A DNA stretch of 64,000 bases from Nibricoccus aquaticus. GTDB lineage: Bacteria; Verrucomicrobiota; Verrucomicrobiia; Opitutales; Opitutaceae. Position 1 is the stretch's first letter. Every line of letters begins with the position of its first letter. The notes beneath the pieces were generated by a model that did no database searches, was not told the DNA's origin, and saw only the letters and a list, made by a program, of their open reading frames with translations. The stretch lies in assembly GCF_002310495.1 (NCBI RefSeq), contig NZ_CP023344.1:744001-808000 (forward strand), written 5' to 3'. A program made the position numbers and the translations under genes. Positions 49,451 through 58,466 of this stretch are shown piece by piece.

Positions 49451-49789
49451 CTACGCAGCGATCAGCGCCATCACGCCCGCCACCACCATCGCGAGCGCCC
49501 CGGCCACCGGCAGCCACCGTGCCCGGTAACTGACTACAAGCGTCACGACAAAACCCGCCGCTCCCAGCGCCAGCAGCCAAAGCACCACGCCCACGCCCCA
49601 CCCGTGCCCGCGCAGCGCCGCCGCAAGCGTCAGCGCCACACCGAGCCAGCCAGCGCCTTTCCACACCGCACGCGGCACATTCGCCAGCCGTCCGCCCGCC
49701 AGCGCCGCGCGCCCATGCGTTCCCATCCCGAGCGCCAGCCACGCCATCGCCGCAAACGCCGCACACACCACCACCACATCCGCGCTCAT
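49451..49789 (-). CDS. DUF3325 membrane protein
   Basis: 112 residues with four hydrophobic segments (VVVCAAFAAMAWLALGMGTH, GWLGVALTLAAALRG, GVVLWLLALGAAGFVVTLVV, VAGALAMVVAGVMALIAA). DUF3325 proteins are encoded beside TonB siderophore receptors with PepSY and DUF3649 partners, and that is its place here as the last gene of the iron cluster. Its ATG overlaps the preceding PepSY stop by 4 bp (ATGA). The molecular role is unknown. Confidence 0.83.
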   Translation of the reverse strand: MSADVVVVCAAFAAMAWLALGMGTHGRAALAGGRLANVPRAVWKGAGWLGVALTLAAALRGHGWGVGVVLWLLALGAAGFVVTLVVSYRARWLPVAGALAMVVAGVMALIAA

Positions 49790-51399
49790 ACCGCCTCCTC
49801 CGCCGGCCGCGATTTCCTCTCACGCGCCGCATCTGCCTTCCGTTCACCGTCACGCCCGCGCCCCGCTCCGATCCTCGACACCTTCCACGCCACCACCGCC
49901 AGCATCGCGCCCGTCGCCAGCACCGTGACGTGAAACCCCAGATACGCCGCATTTCCATCCGCCCACGCCCGCGCTAAAAACGGCCCCGTCACCGCATCGA
50001 CCACCGGCAGCGCCGTGAACAACACCGCCCCCGCCCACAACTGCTCGCGCCACGCCGCCAGCACCGGCCGCACCACCGCATGCGCCAGCATCGCCGCCCA
50101 CGTATAGAGAAACGCTTTCACCTCCCAATCGCCGCGCGCATCCATCCCGACCGGCAGCAACCGGTTCGCCCAAAAGATCGCGCCCATCGCCACAAACAAT
50201 CCCGCGATCCCCGCGATATTCAGCCGCTCGACAAGCCCATGCCCAAAGCTGAAGCGCCCCGCCTTCGCATACTTCGCGCGCCGCTTGATCGTCCACATCA
50301 CGAGCCCCGTCGCCACCAGCGCGCTCCCGAAAAGCCCCATGAGAAAAAACGTCCACCGCATCGCCGGCCCTGCGAACCGCGCCATGTGCAACCCGTACAA
50401 CGTCCCATGCACCTCCGTCGCCACGCCGCCCATCTTCTTCTCCTCGGGTAACAACTCGCCCGTCGCTCCGTTGAACCGCAGCTGCTCGCGCTGCGTGATC
50501 GAAACGCTCCCCGCCTCCGCGCGCGTGAACGTCACGACCATCTTCTCCGTCCCGCGCTCCGTCACATCCATGCGCTTCACCGTCGGATGCTCCCGCCCCC
50601 AACGCCGCGCGACTTCCTCCAGCATCGGCCCCACCGGCGCAGGAGAAACCCACGGCTTCTTCTCCACACCGCCCGCCTTTTTCTCCGCGCCACTCTGCCC
50701 GCCCCGCTCGCGCACCGCGCCCGCCGCCCTCGCCTGCGCATCCGTCAAGACCTCGCGCCCCCACGGCATATACATCGCCATGAAGATCACCAACGCCGAG
50801 TAGCTGATCATAAAATAAAACGGCAGCGCCAGCACCGCCGTCACGTTATGAAAATCCAGAAACGACCGCAGCGACGTCCGCCCCGGCCGGAACGTGAAGA
50901 ACTCTTTGAAGAACTGCCGGTGCGTGATCACCCCGCTGATCAACGCGACAAACATAAACATCGCCGCCACTCCCGCCAGGTAGCGCCCCCACGGATGCGG
51001 CAGCTGCAGCTGGAAATGAAACCGATAGAAAAACTCCGCGCCCCGGCTCTCACGCGCCGTCACCACCTCGCCCGTCACCGGATCGAACGTCGCGCTCCCC
51101 GAGCGTTTCCCGCCCGTGCCCGGCTGCCAGAACGCCGTCGTCGCCGTCGCCCGATCATCCGGCAGCCCGACAAACCACCGCGTCGATTCCGGCGCGCGCT
51201 CCTCCAGACTCTTCCACGCCACCGCCGCCGCATCCACCGGCGAGTCTCCACGTCTCAACTCCGGCTGCATCCACTGCGTGATCTCCGCCTTGAAATACGT
51301 CGCCGTCCCCGTGACGAAAATCGCGAACAGCACCCACCCCAGCAGCAACCCCGTCCACGTGTGCAGCCAGGTCATCGACAGTCGAAACGTGTTCTTCAC
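49786..51399 (-). CDS. PepSY-domain transmembrane protein (siderophore uptake-associated)
   Basis: 537 residues from GTG 51399, which has a GGAGGAG ribosome-binding site 8 bp upstream; the longer frame to 51525 lies inside the preceding gene. The PepSY_TM family pattern is seen: the first helix WLHTWTGLLLGWVLFAIFVT with two His, HPWGRYLAGVAAMFMFVALISG, FLDFHNVTAVLALPFYFMIS and several further helices with His pairs (ALHMARFAGPAMRW-like). Such proteins reduce or release iron from ferric siderophores at the inner membrane. A long charged extracytoplasmic loop (about 245-330) carries the PepSY part. Confidence 0.87.
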   Translation of the reverse strand: MKNTFRLSMTWLHTWTGLLLGWVLFAIFVTGTATYFKAEITQWMQPELRRGDSPVDAAAVAWKSLEERAPESTRWFVGLPDDRATATTAFWQPGTGGKRSGSATFDPVTGEVVTARESRGAEFFYRFHFQLQLPHPWGRYLAGVAAMFMFVALISGVITHRQFFKEFFTFRPGRTSLRSFLDFHNVTAVLALPFYFMISYSALVIFMAMYMPWGREVLTDAQARAAGAVRERGGQSGAEKKAGGVEKKPWVSPAPVGPMLEEVARRWGREHPTVKRMDVTERGTEKMVVTFTRAEAGSVSITQREQLRFNGATGELLPEEKKMGGVATEVHGTLYGLHMARFAGPAMRWTFFLMGLFGSALVATGLVMWTIKRRAKYAKAGRFSFGHGLVERLNIAGIAGLFVAMGAIFWANRLLPVGMDARGDWEVKAFLYTWAAMLAHAVVRPVLAAWREQLWAGAVLFTALPVVDAVTGPFLARAWADGNAAYLGFHVTVLATGAMLAVVAWKVSRIGAGRGRDGERKADAARERKSRPAEEAV

Positions 51400-51722
51400 G
51401 ACGCCGCTCCTCCACTCTTCAAAAACCACACCGCCGCCGCGATCACCGCGCTGGGAATCGCCACACCCGCCCACGCCCGCCAAGCCGTGCGCGCCGCAAA
51501 CACCCACACCACCGCGCCCGCCCACACGAGAAACGCAGGCATCGTCGCCAGCAGGATCACGTCTTCGCGCGGCCCGCTATTTTTCAACGCCAGCGCGAGC
51601 GCCACGTTCACACCCGCCGCCAGCGCATAGCCGCCCAAAACGGCGGCCAGCGCCCGCGACGCGATCGCCCATCGCGATGTTTTCACGCCGCCACTCGTCG
51701 CTCTCGTCGTCCTGATCGTCAT
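51396..51722 (-). CDS. DUF3649 membrane protein
   Basis: 108 residues with about three to four helices (AIASRALAAVLGGYALAAGV, ATMPAFLVWAGAVVWVFAAR, WAGVAIPSAVIAAAVWFL). DUF3649 occurs in iron-siderophore loci between the TonB receptor and the PepSY gene, exactly as here. It overlaps the PepSY GTG by 4 bp and starts 19 bp after the receptor stop, so the four genes 49451-53952 are one transcript. Confidence 0.82.
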   Translation of the reverse strand: MTIRTTRATSGGVKTSRWAIASRALAAVLGGYALAAGVNVALALALKNSGPREDVILLATMPAFLVWAGAVVWVFAARTAWRAWAGVAIPSAVIAAAVWFLKSGGAAS

Positions 51723-51741: not shown

Positions 51742-53952
51742 TCAATAACTCCACCGCAGTGTCGCCGTCACATTCCGCGGCTCGCCGTAGTTCGGATAAT
51801 CCAGCGTCGCCCAGTACTGATAATCCGTCGCGTTGCGCACGCTCAGCGTCGCCGTGAGATGATCGGTGAACCGGTAGTTCGCGAAGACATTGATCAAAGC
51901 AAACGACGCCTGCTCCGCCGTCGTCGTTCCCAGCAGCGGATGATTGATCCCGTACCCCGTCGCCTTGCCCTGCCAGTTCGCACCCGCGCCGACCGACAGC
52001 TTTTTCCACGCGCCCGGCAGTCGGTAGTTCGTGGAAAACTGTATCAGATGCTCGGGCACGTTCGCATACGTGAGATCGAGCGGATGACGGCGCGTGTTCA
52101 CGTTCGTGTAGCCCAGATTCGCCGTCCACTCCGGCAGGATGTAGCCCGACATCTCGAACTCCACGCCGCTGCTCTTCGTCCCATCCACGCCGATGTACGC
52201 GTCCGCCGTGCCATCCGGAATTTTCAACGTCCCGTCGCGCACCGCATAGTTGTCCTGCTTCGTCTCGAACACGCCGAACGACACCTGGAACCGCTTCGCG
52301 AAAAACTCCGCCTTGAGTCCGCCTTCCACGTTCGATCCCAGCACCGGCTTCAACAAATCTCCGTTGCGGTCCTTGTTACTCTGCGGCCGAAACACATCCG
52401 TGTAGCTCGCATAGGCCGACCACACCGCGTTGATGTCGTACACCACGCCGAGGTACGGCGTGACTTCATCGTTCACCTCATACGCCCCAGTCGCGCTCCG
52501 CGCTCCGCTCGGCGCATAGACATCCGTCCGTGTTTCCCACGAACTGAGCCGCGCGCCCACGATCACCGATAACGGATCCATCACTCGATAACGCAGCGAC
52601 GCATAAAACCCGCTCTGATCGGTCGTCGCCACCTGCTTGCCGCCAGTCTTAAGCACCGTCGGCATCGGCGCGTTGCCGTCGTACGTGCGGTAGTCGGGAA
52701 TCACGTACTGCCAGAGATAAGTGCCGCCCGTGATCGAATAAAAACTCGGCGACTCCGCCTCCAGATTGTTCATGTTCCAGCCGAGCACCACGTCGTGCTG
52801 CCGGCCAAACAGCTCCACCTTGCCCGTCGCGTACACGTCGAGATTGTCGCGTACATCCTCGGTCTCGCCGAGCCCCGCCAGCAGCCGCAGCCCGCCGCCC
52901 GTCGTCGGATTGGGAAACTGCCCCGCCCCCGAAGCCGTCGCGTAAACGCGCAGACTGAACACATAACCTTCCGTCCGGTTGTACGCCGCGCGGAGATTCC
53001 AGTTCTCACCCAGCTTCTGATCGAGCGTCACGAACGCCGTCTCCGACGTCCGGTCCCACTGCGTCCAGTTCGTGGAGAAATTCGTCCCCACCGGCAGATT
53101 CAGCTCCGAGCCGTCCGACGCGAACCGCGGCAGCGTTCCCCACATCGGCGCCGTCGGATCGTTGTCCTGATACTGATAACCCGCACCCAGCGTCGTCGTC
53201 GCCGTCACGTCGCCCTCGACCGACGCCATCCACGCGAGCTTCTTCTCCGCATAACGGTCGCGAAAACTCTCCGCATCCTGCGCCGCCACGACGAAACGGC
53301 TGCGAAACTTACCGTCCTGCGACAGCGGCACATTCACGTCCGTCTCCGCCCGATAAAAATCCCACGAGCCCACCGTCGCGCGCGCCGACGCCGCAAACGC
53401 TTTCCCCGCCCGCTTGCGCACGAGATTGATCGTCGCCGACGGGATGCCCGCGCCGCTCGTCAGCCCGTTCGCGCCGCGAATCACATCGATGCGCTCGTAC
53501 AACGCCGTGTCGTACTCCTGATTCGTCGAGCCGCTATACGTCGGAATCCCGTCCACCTGAAAATCCGTGATCTGGAATCCGCGCGCGAAGTAGAGCGGCC
53601 GCTGCGTGTCGTAGAACGACACATGCACGCCCGTCACATTCTTGAGCACGTCGTTCACGTTGAAGAGCGACTCCTCGTCCATCCGCAACCGCCCGATCGT
53701 GCTGATCGACTGCGGCGTCTCACGGATCGTGAGAGCGAGGCGCGTCGAAGCGACCATCGGCGCGCTCCCGACCTGCGAATCGCTCACCTCGAGTTTTTCG
53801 AGCGCGATCACCTCTCCCTCAGAGCTGGCCGCCGGAGCGTTCGGCCCCTTCGGAGTTTCTTGCGTGAGCGCCGAAACGGCGCTGAGCGCAACCAGCACAG
53901 AGCCCGCGACAACACGCGCAGGCCGGGAGAACTTTCCAAACGATGTCTTCAT
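51742..53952 (-). CDS. TonB-dependent siderophore receptor
   Basis: 736 residues from ATG 53952, with a signal peptide (to about residue 30, ALSAVSALTQE). A plug domain (about 55-185) contains the receptor-type IRETPQSISTIGRLRMDEE and the DVLKNVTGVHV motif, then the 22-strand barrel. The C-terminus ends in an aromatic residue (RNVTATLRWSY), as outer-membrane proteins do. This FhuE/FpvA-like class imports ferric hydroxamate or similar siderophores with TonB energy. A tandem operator lies 37 bp upstream of the start. Confidence 0.94.
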   Translation of the reverse strand: MKTSFGKFSRPARVVAGSVLVALSAVSALTQETPKGPNAPAASSEGEVIALEKLEVSDSQVGSAPMVASTRLALTIRETPQSISTIGRLRMDEESLFNVNDVLKNVTGVHVSFYDTQRPLYFARGFQITDFQVDGIPTYSGSTNQEYDTALYERIDVIRGANGLTSGAGIPSATINLVRKRAGKAFAASARATVGSWDFYRAETDVNVPLSQDGKFRSRFVVAAQDAESFRDRYAEKKLAWMASVEGDVTATTTLGAGYQYQDNDPTAPMWGTLPRFASDGSELNLPVGTNFSTNWTQWDRTSETAFVTLDQKLGENWNLRAAYNRTEGYVFSLRVYATASGAGQFPNPTTGGGLRLLAGLGETEDVRDNLDVYATGKVELFGRQHDVVLGWNMNNLEAESPSFYSITGGTYLWQYVIPDYRTYDGNAPMPTVLKTGGKQVATTDQSGFYASLRYRVMDPLSVIVGARLSSWETRTDVYAPSGARSATGAYEVNDEVTPYLGVVYDINAVWSAYASYTDVFRPQSNKDRNGDLLKPVLGSNVEGGLKAEFFAKRFQVSFGVFETKQDNYAVRDGTLKIPDGTADAYIGVDGTKSSGVEFEMSGYILPEWTANLGYTNVNTRRHPLDLTYANVPEHLIQFSTNYRLPGAWKKLSVGAGANWQGKATGYGINHPLLGTTTAEQASFALINVFANYRFTDHLTATLSVRNATDYQYWATLDYPNYGEPRNVTATLRWSY

Positions 53953-53988
53953 GGGAAAGGCGAAGTATCCCAATTCGCCGCCCAAAAA

Positions 53989-54030
53989 TTCCACCTGCCC
54001 CCGGCCAATAGCCGCCTGCTGACGGCCAAA
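53989..54030 (-). promoter_or_regulatory. Tandem 21-bp direct-repeat operator of the TonB receptor
   Basis: On the minus strand, TTTGGCCGTCAGCAGGCGGC is followed one 21-bp turn later by ATTGGCCGGGGGCAGGTGGA. The conserved core of each is TTGGCCGnnnGCAGG. The second copy is followed by 19 nt and GATACT, then 11 nt to the ATG. The same layout occurs at 54754-54795. AraC-family activators bind such 21-bp-spaced direct repeats next to the -35 position, and an AraC gene is adjacent. Confidence 0.7.
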
Positions 54031-54085
54031 AAAAAACGCCGGCGATAAAGCTGGCGTCACGAATCACAAAAACGGCGCAGCTCGC

Positions 54086-54718
54086 TCAGCTCTTCACATC
54101 GAACGTCAGCGTGAATACATGCCGCACGCCTTCGTACGCGCGCCCATCGAGCTCGCCCGCCTTCTTCTCCAGATGCCCGACCTCGATCACCGCCTGCCCC
54201 GGCCACGGCGTCTCGATCGTAACCTTGCCCGCCGCATCCGTTTTCCAGGTACGGCTCCAACCCGACGACGTGAACAGCACCACATCCGCATCCGCGAGAG
54301 GCGCACCGTGCAGCAGCAACGTGAAGCGGTTGCTGTCCGCCGCGACCGGCACCAGCTCCAGCTCGAACTTCCCCGCCGTCTCCGTGCGCCCCAGCTTCGC
54401 CTGATAAAACGAAACGCTCTTCGCCTTCTCGCCGAAGTACGTGTTCGTCAGCCGCACATCGCCCGCCACACCGCCCGCCGCGATGTTGATCCGGTCATTC
54501 GCCCGAGTCACCGCGAGCTCCTTGCCGTCCGCCGCGAACGCCTTCGGCTTCGCGATGAGTTTTAGATAACCCTCCTCCGTCTCGCGCACATTCGCCGCCC
54601 ACTCGCCAAAGTACGCCGCCGTCCCACCCGACGCGTCGCGCTCGATCCAGACAAAATGCGCCCGCAGCGGCAACGAGGCCGCGACCAAGAGGAGAAATGT
54701 AACGAAATAATTTTTCAT
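54086..54718 (-). CDS. DUF4198 periplasmic protein
   Basis: 210 residues from ATG 54718, signal peptide MKNYFVTFLLLVAASLPLRA. The DUF4198 pattern is seen as HFVWIERDASGGTAAYFGEW and a late IEVGHLEKKAGELDGRAYE with a C-terminal HVFTLTFDVKS. Members are periplasmic metal-related proteins, often with Ni/Co or iron uptake genes. Here it lies between the regulator and the receptor and has its own tandem operator 36 bp upstream. Confidence 0.83.
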   Translation of the reverse strand: MKNYFVTFLLLVAASLPLRAHFVWIERDASGGTAAYFGEWAANVRETEEGYLKLIAKPKAFAADGKELAVTRANDRINIAAGGVAGDVRLTNTYFGEKAKSVSFYQAKLGRTETAGKFELELVPVAADSNRFTLLLHGAPLADADVVLFTSSGWSRTWKTDAAGKVTIETPWPGQAVIEVGHLEKKAGELDGRAYEGVRHVFTLTFDVKS

Positions 54719-54753
54719 AGGGACGCCCATCATCCCACGCCTCGCCCGCCCGC

Positions 54754-54795
54754 TTCCACCTGCCCCCGGCCAATTCTCACCTGCGCGCGGCCAGC
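54754..54795 (-). promoter_or_regulatory. Tandem 21-bp direct-repeat operator of the DUF4198 gene
   Basis: Minus-strand copies GCTGGCCGCGCGCAGGTGAG and ATTGGCCGGGGGCAGGTGGA lie one 21-bp turn apart, followed by 19 nt, GATGAT, and 10 nt to the ATG. The proximal copy is identical over 21 bp to that of the receptor gene. The distal copy overlaps the last six codons and stop of the AraC gene. Confidence 0.7.
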
Positions 54796-55664
54796 TGAAA
54801 TTCCTTCGGATTCATCCCGAACTGACGCCGGAACGCGGAGGCAAAATTACTCGGGTTGCTGTACCCGACCATCGTCGCCGCCTCGATCACCGTCGCCTCG
54901 CCCGACTGCAACAACTCCCGCGCGCTCTCCATGCGCAACCTGCGCAGATGCTCGAAAACCGTCGTCCCGAAAACCTGCCGGAATCCCCGCTTCAGCGTCG
55001 TCTCGCTCAGCCCCGCCTCGCACGCCAGCGCCTCCAGCAACGGCGTCTCCTCGATCCTCCGCTCCAACGCCGCCGCCGCCGCCCGCACCCGCGTCTCCGT
55101 CTCAGACATCAACGCCGTCGGCCTCGCCTCTCCCGCCGTGATGAACTCCACCAGCAGATCGTGACAGCGCGCCGCCAACACCAGCATCCGGCACGCCCCC
55201 GCCAGCGGACACCGCCGCACCGACTCCATCGCCATCCGCGCCGCCGCCGTCAGCGCCCTCTCCCGCCCCATCTCCAAAACGACCTCGCGAAAAATCTCCC
55301 GCCGCACGTCGCCGCTCAGTTCCACGATCAGATGAAACGCCACCGCCCTCGCCGCGTCGCGCACCCGCCCCAGCTCTTCACGCCGCAACGCCACCATCCA
55401 CCCCATCGCGCCCGCCGGATTTCCCGCGCACGCCGCCGCCCCGCTCGCACGCGCCTCCTTCAACGCGAAAAAAAAACACACCGTCTCGTCCTCACCCGGC
55501 CCACCGCCCTCCACGTCTTCCCCACACAACCCGTCTTCACTCCAGCGCACCGTCATCCCCGGCCGCAAAACCTGCATCCCCGCCCCGCGATCCACCGCGC
55601 ACACCGGCAGTGCAACCGCCTGTGTCCGCGAGGCGCGCTCATCGGCGAATGAAAGCAGTGTCAT
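54777..55664 (-). CDS. AraC-family transcriptional regulator (PchR-like)
   Basis: 295 residues from ATG 55664. The N-terminal ~190 residues form a sensor domain with a TVRWSEDGLCGED block. The C-terminal double helix-turn-helix is clear: LACEAGLSETTLKRGFRQVF and EAATMVGYSNPSNFASAFRR then FGMNPKEFQ. Regulators of this type (PchR, AlcR) switch on ferric-siderophore receptors when the siderophore is bound. Its stop overlaps the downstream tandem operator. It is probably the activator of the 53989 and 54754 sites. Confidence 0.88.
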   Translation of the reverse strand: MTLLSFADERASRTQAVALPVCAVDRGAGMQVLRPGMTVRWSEDGLCGEDVEGGGPGEDETVCFFFALKEARASGAAACAGNPAGAMGWMVALRREELGRVRDAARAVAFHLIVELSGDVRREIFREVVLEMGRERALTAAARMAMESVRRCPLAGACRMLVLAARCHDLLVEFITAGEARPTALMSETETRVRAAAAALERRIEETPLLEALACEAGLSETTLKRGFRQVFGTTVFEHLRRLRMESARELLQSGEATVIEAATMVGYSNPSNFASAFRRQFGMNPKEFQLAARR

Positions 55665-55695: not shown

Positions 55696-55788
55696 TCAGT
55701 GCAACGAGAGCACAAACGCCGCCAGCAACGCCAGCGACAGCGCCAGGCAAAGCGTGAAACGCAGCGAATAAGCGACGTCGGCTCTCAT
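55696..55788 (-). CDS. 30-residue single-span membrane peptide
   Basis: Short frame MRADVAYSLRFTLCLALSLA then LLAAFVLSLH, stop at 55696. A GAGGAACGG ribosome-binding site lies at the right distance before the ATG at 55788. It begins 10 bp after the flavodoxin stop and ends 31 bp before the AraC start, in the same direction. One hydrophobic helix of ~20 residues. Too short for standard gene prediction. Function unknown; candidates are a small anchor or a membrane-bound partner of the flavodoxin. Confidence 0.65.
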   Translation of the reverse strand: MRADVAYSLRFTLCLALSLALLAAFVLSLH

Positions 55789-56304: not shown

Positions 56305-56640
56305 TCACGCCGTCTTCCGCCTCCGTGAAACCCGCGGCGGCGCAGGCGCGAAGGTATTTTCGCCGCGCACCAGCACGCTCACCCGCGCGCTCGGGCAGAA
56401 ACACGCCAGCCGGCACGCCAGGCACCACACGCGATGCTGCGCCTCCGCCAGTTCGACCGGCAGATGCAGCGTGAGCGACGGCTCCACGCAGTCCGCACCG
56501 ATCGCGAGGGTCCGCGCGATCAGCGCCTGCCCCACATCACGCGCGCACACCGCCGCGATCTCCGCCAGCGCCGCCGCCTGCGACGAACGCGGCGCATGGA
56601 TCTCGCAGATGATCGGCAGCGATTCGACCCGCGCACTCAT
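56305..56640 (-). CDS. Small Cys-rich protein, unknown function
   Basis: 111 residues from ATG 56640, whose first base overlaps the preceding stop (ATGA). N-terminus MSARVESLPIICEIHAPRSS, helix-forming middle, and a CLACRLACFCPSARVSVLVR segment with four Cys in eight residues, a possible metal or iron-sulfur site. No recognised family. It lies directly upstream of the flavodoxin. Confidence 0.65.
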   Translation of the reverse strand: MSARVESLPIICEIHAPRSSQAAALAEIAAVCARDVGQALIARTLAIGADCVEPSLTLHLPVELAEAQHRVWCLACRLACFCPSARVSVLVRGENTFAPAPPRVSRRRKTA

Positions 56641-56937: not shown

Positions 56938-58149
56938 CTAGGCCAGACACGCCTCCAGCGCCGCCGTGATTTTACCTTCCTCCAACCCTGTCCCAATAAA
57001 CACCAACTCCTGCCGCCGGTCCCCCTGCGGCTCCGCCCAGACCGCCTGAATCGCCTCCGGCCGCTCGTCCATCCGCACCTTCCCGCTCCCGACCAGCGCC
57101 GCCCACCAATAATTCAGATAATCCATCCGCGCCACGCCCCCCGCGACCGACAAAAACCCCATCTCATCCGGCCGCTCTCGCGTCCAAAAAAAGCCCTTCG
57201 CACGCAACAACCCCTCCGCCTCATTTACCAAAAACGCCCGCAACTTCTCCTCCACGAAAGGCCGCCGCGCCTGATAGATCACCGTCCGAATCCCAAACTT
57301 CCGCTCATGCTCCGGCACCGCATTCGTCGTGGCCGCCTTGCGCGCATTGATCACCACGCCCGCCACTCCTGCCGCGCCGCCCGCCGGAGCAAGCCGGTTG
57401 AGCGTCCTTAGCCACGTCGCGGCCTTCAGCGTTTCCTGCGCATCGAAACGCCGCCGCCCCAGCAAAAACCCCTCATCCACCCGCCCCTGCTCCGCCCGCA
57501 CGATCTCCGCGCGCTCATTCAATCCCCGCAAAACCCCCTCCAGCTCCGCCAGTTCCGTCTCCGGGGCCAGATCGCATTTATTGAGCACCAGCACGTCCGC
57601 GCACTCCGCCTGCTCCAGCATCAACTCAAACACCGGCCGCGTCCCGCCGGGCGCGGGAAACTCCCGGTGCCCACGTTCCTGATACGCACGCCACTCCCGC
57701 AAAAAATGCGCCGCGTCGATCACGCTCACCAGCGCCGACAGCCGCGCGAAATCCGACAGACTCCGCCCAAACGGATTCTTCTGCGTGAACAACGCCGCCA
57801 CGCCCCTCGGCTCCGCCACGCCCGTCGTCTCCACCAGGATATGCTCGTAGTCCCCCGTCGCCGCCAGCTCCGCCAGCGCCTCGCCGAGTTCATCGCGACT
57901 CGAACAGCACACGCACCCATTACCCAGATCGATGATCTTCCGCCCCTCACTTCCCGCTCCGTCGCCGCCTTCGCTCCCCCGCACCAGCGACACGTCGATG
58001 TTCAGCGACGCCACATCATTCACCACCACCGCCCACTTTCGCCCCGCCGCCTGCGTCAGCAGATGCGTGAGCAACGTCGTCTTCCCCGCCCCGAGGAAGC
58101 CGCAAAAAACCGTCACCGGCGGGCGCGCGATTGAACAAGTATCCGACAT
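56938..58149 (-). CDS. COG0523 (CobW/ZigA-type) metal-chaperone GTPase
   Basis: 403 residues from ATG 58149; a TTG at 58161 is an alternative start. The P-loop GFLGAGKTT is at 17-25, the metal motif GNGCVCC at 76-82, with NKCD for guanine and a C-terminal CobW_C domain. Such GTPases deliver zinc or cobalt to target proteins and are usually made under zinc limitation. Two genes upstream on the same strand are small and metal-related, so these form a cluster. Confidence 0.9.
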   Translation of the reverse strand: MSDTCSIARPPVTVFCGFLGAGKTTLLTHLLTQAAGRKWAVVVNDVASLNIDVSLVRGSEGGDGAGSEGRKIIDLGNGCVCCSSRDELGEALAELAATGDYEHILVETTGVAEPRGVAALFTQKNPFGRSLSDFARLSALVSVIDAAHFLREWRAYQERGHREFPAPGGTRPVFELMLEQAECADVLVLNKCDLAPETELAELEGVLRGLNERAEIVRAEQGRVDEGFLLGRRRFDAQETLKAATWLRTLNRLAPAGGAAGVAGVVINARKAATTNAVPEHERKFGIRTVIYQARRPFVEEKLRAFLVNEAEGLLRAKGFFWTRERPDEMGFLSVAGGVARMDYLNYWWAALVGSGKVRMDERPEAIQAVWAEPQGDRRQELVFIGTGLEEGKITAALEACLA

Positions 58150-58157
58150 CGCCCCAC

Positions 58158-58466
58158 TCAACTCCTCTTCGCAGGCGTGGCGAGCGTCTGCATCACCATC
58201 ATCTTAGTCACCGCCACGCGCGGCCGCGTAAACCGCCAGCTCCGCGTCTCGCCCTCCGCCGCGAACACCGCGACCACCGTCTCCACCAGCGGACACCCCG
58301 CATCCACGCACGCGATTTCACTCACCGTCACCACATCGTCCTCGCCCAGCCGCAACACCTCACGCGTCCACCGCTTGATCGCCTCCGCATATGACGGATC
58401 GATCACAGCCGCAATCGCCGCGCCTTCGCCACCCGACTCATTCGCAGGAATAAACCGATGCGTCAC
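58158..58466 (-). CDS. Small protein of zinc-responsive type, conserved hypothetical
   Basis: 102 residues from GTG 58466, with a GGAGGG ribosome-binding site 8 bp upstream. The longer frame to 58541 would translate a repeat (family B) and is rejected. The VSEIACVDAGCPLVETVVAV segment with its two cysteines is typical of small proteins often encoded next to COG0523 genes. The stop is 8 bp before the GTPase start, so they are translationally linked. Function not known. Confidence 0.7.
   Translation of the reverse strand: MTHRFIPANESGGEGAAIAAVIDPSYAEAIKRWTREVLRLGEDDVVTVSEIACVDAGCPLVETVVAVFAAEGETRSWRFTRPRVAVTKMMVMQTLATPAKRS

Follow-up and report, generated by a model that had tools for sequence, protein, structure and literature searches.

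The closest described counterparts of the sites reported here are the operators of the AraC-type regulators XylS and MekR. In the accessible part of the source, each operator is described as two direct 15-bp half-sites of two boxes apiece, which lie 6 bp apart and so repeat with a 21-bp period: TGCA-N6-GGNTA-N6-TGCA-N6-GGNTA for XylS at the Pm promoter and CACC-N5-CTTCAA-N6-CACC-N5-CTTCAA for MekR (PMC4514859; for XylS also PMC5481539). Other AraC-type proteins are known from siderophore genes. According to the portions of the sources that were available, PchR of P. aeruginosa activates siderophore receptor genes, its effector being the siderophore itself (PMC8477383), and AlcR of Bordetella, DesR, PbtA, and YbtA are AraC-like positive regulators of siderophore genes (PMC8639528). 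In Synechocystis, which reportedly does not secrete pyochelin or other siderophores, AraC-type genes lie upstream of TonB-dependent receptor genes whose promoters are bound by IutR (annotated as PchR), as the accessible text of that report describes it (PMC11221513). Among the papers listed by a literature search, no title or beginning of an abstract described a regulator like the present one for Verrucomicrobiota, which is no proof of absence because most subscription journals lie outside its coverage. At Pm, the XylS and RNA polymerase sites reportedly overlap, if the title of a reference is followed, and Michel et al. 2005 is said to be the PchR-box study.

Here, we studied a 64,000-nt stretch of a single-contig 4.73-Mb genome (C1:744001-808000; "the window"), in which two pairs of tandem repeats precede iron-uptake genes. 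The two sites are very probably class II operator-promoters of an AraC protein, probably PchR-like, encoded just upstream. This reading rests on a model of the site, its co-occurrence with the regulator, an alignment of 18 sites, the layouts of three further genomes (G045, G106, and G128; G and L numbers are our handles for genomes and loci), a comparison of receptor loci, and the published 21-bp periods.

The locus and its tandem repeats

All features of the locus lie on the minus strand, where the genes follow one another in the order flavodoxin, small ORF, AraC, DUF4198-like, TonB receptor, DUF3649, PepSY_TM, and small hydrophobic ORF. The AraC gene (54777-55664) encodes a 295-aa regulator, probably of the PchR-like kind, with a double-HTH C-terminal domain; its matches to PF12833 (HTH_18; 84.2 bits, cut-off 33.6) and PF00165 (HTH_AraC; 39.8 bits, cut-off 26.6) place it in the AraC/XylS family, and its best NCBIfam models score far below their cut-offs. 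Structure prediction is confident for the DNA-binding part (block pLDDT 82-95 from residue 191, with high-confidence helices) and of low confidence for the N-terminal sensor half, and a search of PDB sequences matched only the DNA-binding part of AraC-type chains. The nearest named relatives come from Candidatus Didemnitutus, a genus in the Opitutaceae (Verrucomicrobiota). Relatives that are 37-38% identical over ~155 C-terminal residues are encoded in three cyanobacterial loci, which have TonB receptor matches downstream. Across 14 orthologues, mean pairwise identity is 67% in residues 186-295 and 29% in residues 28-120. The idea that the sensor part tracks the receptor type is not supported, because residues 28-120 of the window protein are 20-23% identical to those of L031, L032, G106, and G128 even though the receptors of these are 66-68% identical to the window's.

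Downstream, the DUF4198-like protein (54086-54718) scores 33.2 bits with PF10670, just below the 34-bit cut-off. The 736-aa product of the next gene (51742-53952) is a TonB-dependent siderophore receptor by TIGR01783 (291.7 bits, cut-off 223.5); its nearest equivalog models, FhuE (474.9 bits, cut-off 666) and FauA (461.7 bits, cut-off 900), remain below their cut-offs. A DUF3649 protein (51396-51722; PF12365, 34.2 bits, cut-off 21.2) and a PepSY_TM protein (49786-51402; PF03929, 229.9 bits), which may have a ferrisiderophore-reductase-type role, come next, and the gene run ends with a small hydrophobic ORF from the ORF list (49451-49789) that has no NCBIfam match and may be "DUF3325-like". Upstream, a 30-codon ORF for a hydrophobic peptide (55696-55788) lies between flavodoxin and AraC. 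A small conserved protein of 111 aa (56305-56640) matches no Pfam or NCBIfam model; L031, L032, and G045 (L046) encode homologues of it upstream of AraC, and in G051 a homologue stands directly behind an operator copy and ahead of a ferritin-like gene. A CobW-family GTPase (56938-58161) is also encoded upstream of AraC, close to the iron operon; its nearest model is the ZigA zinc metallochaperone (330.8 bits against a cut-off of 600).

The original prediction, made from the letters of this DNA, was that a 15-mer occurs in tandem before both the TonB receptor and the DUF4198-like gene. The minus strand carries exact copies of TTGGCCGNNNGCAGG at 53994-54008, 54015-54029, and 54759-54773; these are the only three in the 4.73-Mb genome, all of them at this locus, and a reversed control pattern has none. 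The predicted 21-bp step is present in both pairs, but the last of the four copies, at 54780-54794, departs from the motif at one position (CTGGCCG). Identity of the proximal unit between the two promoters is complete, as had been noted, over all 21 positions (ATTGGCCGGGGGCAGGTGGAA), and in both cases 19 nt separate this unit from a -10-like hexamer, GATACT with 11 nt to the ATG of the receptor and GATGAT with 10 nt to that of the DUF4198-like gene. The AraC gene had been placed between the two promoters. This was a mistake, as the gene (55664-54777 in its own direction) is upstream of both, and the order in the direction of transcription is AraC, operator 1, DUF4198-like gene, operator 2, TonB receptor. 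The 15-mer itself was too short, since the unit conserved in 18 sites is TGRCCG-N4/5-CRGGTRGAA.

These 18 sites, drawn from the scans described below, align without gaps from the distal half-site to the -10, with the consensus yTGRCCGCCnGCAGGTRGAAA, then TTGGCCGGnnnCRGGTGGAAT, 15 nt, and TGNGATACT. Positions C6, C12, G15, C27, C33, G36, T37, G39, and A40 of the half-sites and G59, A62, and T66 around the -10 are invariant in all 18. Likeness between the two half-sites peaks at a shift of 21 (12.3 of 21 matches, against 3.4-7.4 at other shifts from 8 to 44). The proximal half ends at position 42 and so covers the -35 position (37-42), and the -10 occupies positions 61-66; the putative -35 hexamer is TGGAAT, with which the proximal unit ends, 18 nt ahead of the -10. 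Direct half-sites 21 bp apart, the proximal one overlapping the -35, constitute the class II layout of AraC-type activators in the 18 sites. Deviant -10s are seen in G126 (CATCAT) and G051a (GACAAT). In the window, operator 1 thus comprises a distal half-site at 54774-54794, which overlaps the AraC gene at its 3' end, stop codon included (assigned from the sequence and the alignment), a proximal half-site at 54753-54773 that overlaps the -35 position (exact motif, genome model, and alignment), and GATGAT at 54729-54734 (alignment). Operator 2 comprises a distal half-site at 54009-54029 (exact motif and alignment), a proximal half-site at 53988-54008 (exact motif, genome model, and alignment), and GATACT at 53964-53969 (alignment).

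The distance to the start codon is equally restricted. An ATG lies 8-12 nt past the -10 in 13 of the 18 sites (the exceptions are G283, G005, G051b, L031, and L032), and none of these 13 has GGAG, GAGG, AGGA, or AAGG between the -10 and the ATG. Transcription usually begins 6-8 nt after the -10; if it does so here, the mRNAs from these 13 sites are predicted to be nearly leaderless.

Sites in the genome and across the family

With up to two mismatches allowed, the bare 15-mer shows no enrichment in the window (15 copies against 12.9 expected from shuffles), and significance therefore rests on a model of the tandem arrangement. Our first model, sequence-only and 66 positions long, was built from six sites of six other Opitutaceae genomes, located next to or near AraC orthologues fetched from those genomes, and the window was left out. 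Over the whole genome, with 150 of 1671 first-look candidates scored and with E-values that are rough, the window sites reached 43.0 bits (E 1.9e-10) and 29.4 bits (E 3.4e-6), and the next-best places 12.6 bits (E 0.62) and 10.8 bits (E 2.27). The latter two, on the strand opposite to nearby ORFs (methyl-accepting-protein-like and methylenetetrahydrofolate-reductase-like, named by eye), were taken as chance. The same scan of 150 of the 1671 candidates placed no operator ahead of the AraC gene itself. The window's two sites are thus the only significant ones, which fits the earlier description of the regulon as self-contained, as far as this genome goes.

A second model (R2), built from all eight sites (six from the other genomes and the window's two), was run over 250 Opitutaceae genomes, with the best 20 first-look candidates scored per genome. 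There were 17 matches at E <= 1e-6, a line set after viewing the match list, and they fell in 13 genomes. An eighteenth site (G051b, E 4.9e-5) does not reach this line; it was kept because of the TonB receptor gene downstream and counts in the anatomy only, whereas a G098 match at E 4.8e-5 was dropped. Altogether, matches in G098 (two), G251, G217, G057, and G164, at E 4.8e-5 to 2.2e-4, were dropped as noise, and tblastn with eight window proteins matched nothing (E <= 1e-4) in the stretches retrieved around them. Further matches at E 6e-4 to 0.05 stand outside the count. A search for the AraC protein in 250 family genomes, taken as the same draw with no new genomes among those listed, found an orthologue in 14 genomes at 161 bits or more, the next protein match having 96 bits.

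Strong sites are almost exclusively associated with this regulator: at E <= 1e-6, 13 of the 14 genomes with the orthologue have them, against none of the 236 without it. Excluding the seven genomes that supplied training sites leaves 6/7 against 0/236 (Fisher p 2.6e-11, a nominal value because related genomes are not independent). The sole miss is G019, whose orthologue (179.6 bits) has no significant site; its best match (15.7 bits) lies elsewhere in the stretch, and beside AraC there is a degenerate stretch with a -10-like GCGAAACT, recognized by eye. In G106 and G128, the two-promoter layout of the window recurs. An order-wide scan of 273 genomes gave matches at E <= 1e-4 only in G000, G005, and G126, all of them Opitutaceae.

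Receptor genes provide a second comparison. Orthologues of the window receptor, at 54-68% identity, are found in ten genomes including the window's own. All six of these that also have the AraC orthologue (the window, G166, G196, G106, G128, and G045) have a site, which stands before the receptor itself or, in G166 and G196 (whose loci are L031 and L032), before the DUF4198 gene that precedes the receptor. In the four that lack the orthologue (G259, G034, G130, and G167), no site was found in the loci with ~1.5 kb flanks, and neither was one in two more distant receptor loci (G177 and G097; ~1.5 kb flanks). Thus, the site follows the regulator. In L122, L124, and L125 (G259, G130, and G167), the DUF4198-like gene appears by eye to be on the other side of the receptor from that in the window, so another control is to be expected there.

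Outside the group of orthologues, the cyanobacterial relatives showed no pair of 17-mers with at least 14 matches at steps of 17-25 within 900 bp past the gene, and no match to R2; the 17-mer scan was too strict, missing the site-bearing L031 and L032 as well, and carries no weight against cyanobacterial sites. The flanks of second-rank AraC proteins (85-96 bits) contained nothing recognizable by eye, in a look that is no test because several of the loci were in contig orientation. That the repeats would be the operators of this AraC protein is well supported by these comparisons of sequence. This assignment stands on the genome scan, the co-occurrence, the siteless receptors of four genomes without this AraC, and the XylS-like 21-bp period, and the motif is present in orthologous promoters, with G019 as the one exception.

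Target genes, effector, and alternative explanations

Sites precede TonB receptor genes in the window, G053, G282, G193, G126 (a match to the Plug domain only), G045a, G045b, G051b, G106b, and G128b, and DUF4198-like genes in the window, L031, L032, G106a, and G128a, the last assigned by position and by similarity of its start to that of G106a, without a tblastn match. The G005 site is before a protein with a TonB C-terminal domain, whose start is 128 nt away; G051a is before a small conserved gene with a ferritin-like gene behind it; and G283 is before smaller ORFs followed by a TonB receptor. The receptors of G053, G282, G193, and G045a share only ~24-25% identity with that of the window.

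By analogy with PchR, AlcR, and IutR, the likeliest effector would be a scavenged siderophore. The earlier label "siderophore-activated" is a prediction, in keeping with an operon of the iron-uptake type and with the receptor's match to the siderophore-receptor model. Matches to IucA/IucC (PF04183) and to the NRPS condensation domain (PF00668) number zero in the genome, and control genomes are positive, which makes a scavenged siderophore likelier than one of its own. No E. coli-type Fur box with up to three mismatches was found in the window, so dual control by iron is not supported, although this consensus may not be that of this phylum. It is also conceivable, if rather unlikely, that AraC binds the sites and responds to something other than a ferri-siderophore, such as another metal-loaded or metal-free ligand, or that it acts mainly as a ligand-free repressor. 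The sensor part is weakly conserved, as given above, and poorly modeled; the AraC-type siderophore regulator YbtA is described as activating together with Cu(II)-yersiniabactin in the accessible part of one report (PMC8725597); and the CobW-family GTPase upstream is nearest to a zinc chaperone model, ZigA, albeit below its cut-off. Against this, the receptor passes the siderophore-receptor model, and elsewhere the operators have an iron-uptake context, in that the genes behind them encode TonB receptors and a TonB-type protein or, in one case, are a small gene and then a ferritin-like gene.

A conserved site does not itself name the protein that binds it, and a search with the AraC protein gives 15 matches (E <= 0.001) in the genome of the window. 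The repeats might belong to some other regulator, be it a second AraC protein, a response regulator, or an alternative sigma factor, which is co-inherited with this AraC gene. We consider this improbable, because strong sites are confined to genomes with the orthologue, although AraC-type matches are common in the family. In G045, moreover, 3.4 Mb separate the AraC gene from the second site, which precedes a TonB-DUF3649-PepSY operon, and close linkage therefore fails to account for the co-occurrence.

The distal half of operator 1 calls for a separate consideration. In the window, the last AraC codons (CTG GCC GCG CGC AGG) and the stop (TGA) overlap it, and the distal unit likewise forms the end of the AraC gene in G053, G282, G193, G283, and G126, making six of the 13 genomes with sites; some of the six are closely related, so these are not six independent events. 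With the copy placed inside the last codons in these genomes, it could in principle reflect nothing but protein-coding conservation of the AraC C-terminus (QL[AT]ARR), with no half-site at all. This has slightly less to recommend it than a different regulator, as in the other 12 of the 18 sites the half-site keeps its 21-bp step without lying in the AraC gene, and codon usage also speaks against it. The final codon is AGG in five of the six overlapping genes (GGG in G283), and AGG is otherwise used for 0 of 14, 14, 14, 20, and 21 Arg codons in the scanned gene parts of G053, G282, G193, G283, and G126, respectively; in the window AraC, it makes up 5 of the 34 other Arg codons, and the codon argument is accordingly weak there. 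The stop is TAG in five of the six (TGA in the window) versus TGA in all eight orthologues without the overlap. This pattern suggests that the overlapping codons and stop have been shaped by selection at the DNA level for the operator. Finally, chance similarity in GC-rich DNA, with which the ordinary frequency of the two-mismatch 15-mer in shuffles would agree, has next to no probability given the genome search with an independent model and the cross-genome co-occurrence.

Proposed mechanism and comparison with known systems

Under the operator reading, two AraC monomers would bind head-to-tail on half-sites 21 bp apart, and the two HTHs of each monomer would read its TGRCCG and CRGGTRGAA boxes from the same face of the DNA. 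RNA polymerase would be recruited to a -10 of the TGNGATACT type by the proximal monomer, which overlaps the -35, and the DUF4198-like and TonB receptor-DUF3649-PepSY transcripts would begin only a few nucleotides from the ATG. As effector, a ferri-siderophore that is imported and probably made by other organisms is most likely; the receptor would then be under positive feedback. More tentatively, and with somewhat less than an even chance of being right, the whole may be a portable cassette: the last codons and stop of AraC would serve as the distal half of its own operator under DNA-level selection (AGG, TAG), and operator, -10, and ATG would form one rigid ~80-bp unit from which nearly leaderless mRNAs start. 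Within a single Verrucomicrobiota family, this unit would have come to stand ahead of several TonB receptors that are only distantly related to one another, while the sensor part diverged.

This is a real, conserved AraC-type regulon of a known kind, its operator now defined and its architecture textbook. Sequence alone was enough to pair a previously uncharacterized AraC regulator with a precise DNA target, and the 66-bp model predicts target genes in new genomes. The locus suggests siderophore scavenging that is controlled by the substrate rather than by biosynthesis, and it offers a clean case of coding sequence as operator combined with activator-dependent, possibly leaderless promoters.

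With the Synechocystis system, the locus shares its gene arrangement, and cyanobacterial AraC-TonB receptor loci are among the relatives of the window AraC; IutR1, however, is described as a global regulator in the part of the report that was available (PMC11221513), whereas two sites alone were found for the window AraC. PchR, in the portion of its source that was accessible, differs from our reading of the window AraC in also controlling pyochelin biosynthesis and in being combined with Fur. The AlcR group is similar in that the window receptor is near the FauA and FhuE models; its effectors are known or have been studied, as far as the available text goes, whereas IucA/IucC or NRPS condensation biosynthesis genes were not found in the genome of the window. 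In DNA layout, the window operators match those of XylS and MekR, as the accessible source presents them, in having a 21-bp direct-repeat period next to the -35, and they differ from these in half-site sequence and in standing before iron-uptake genes.
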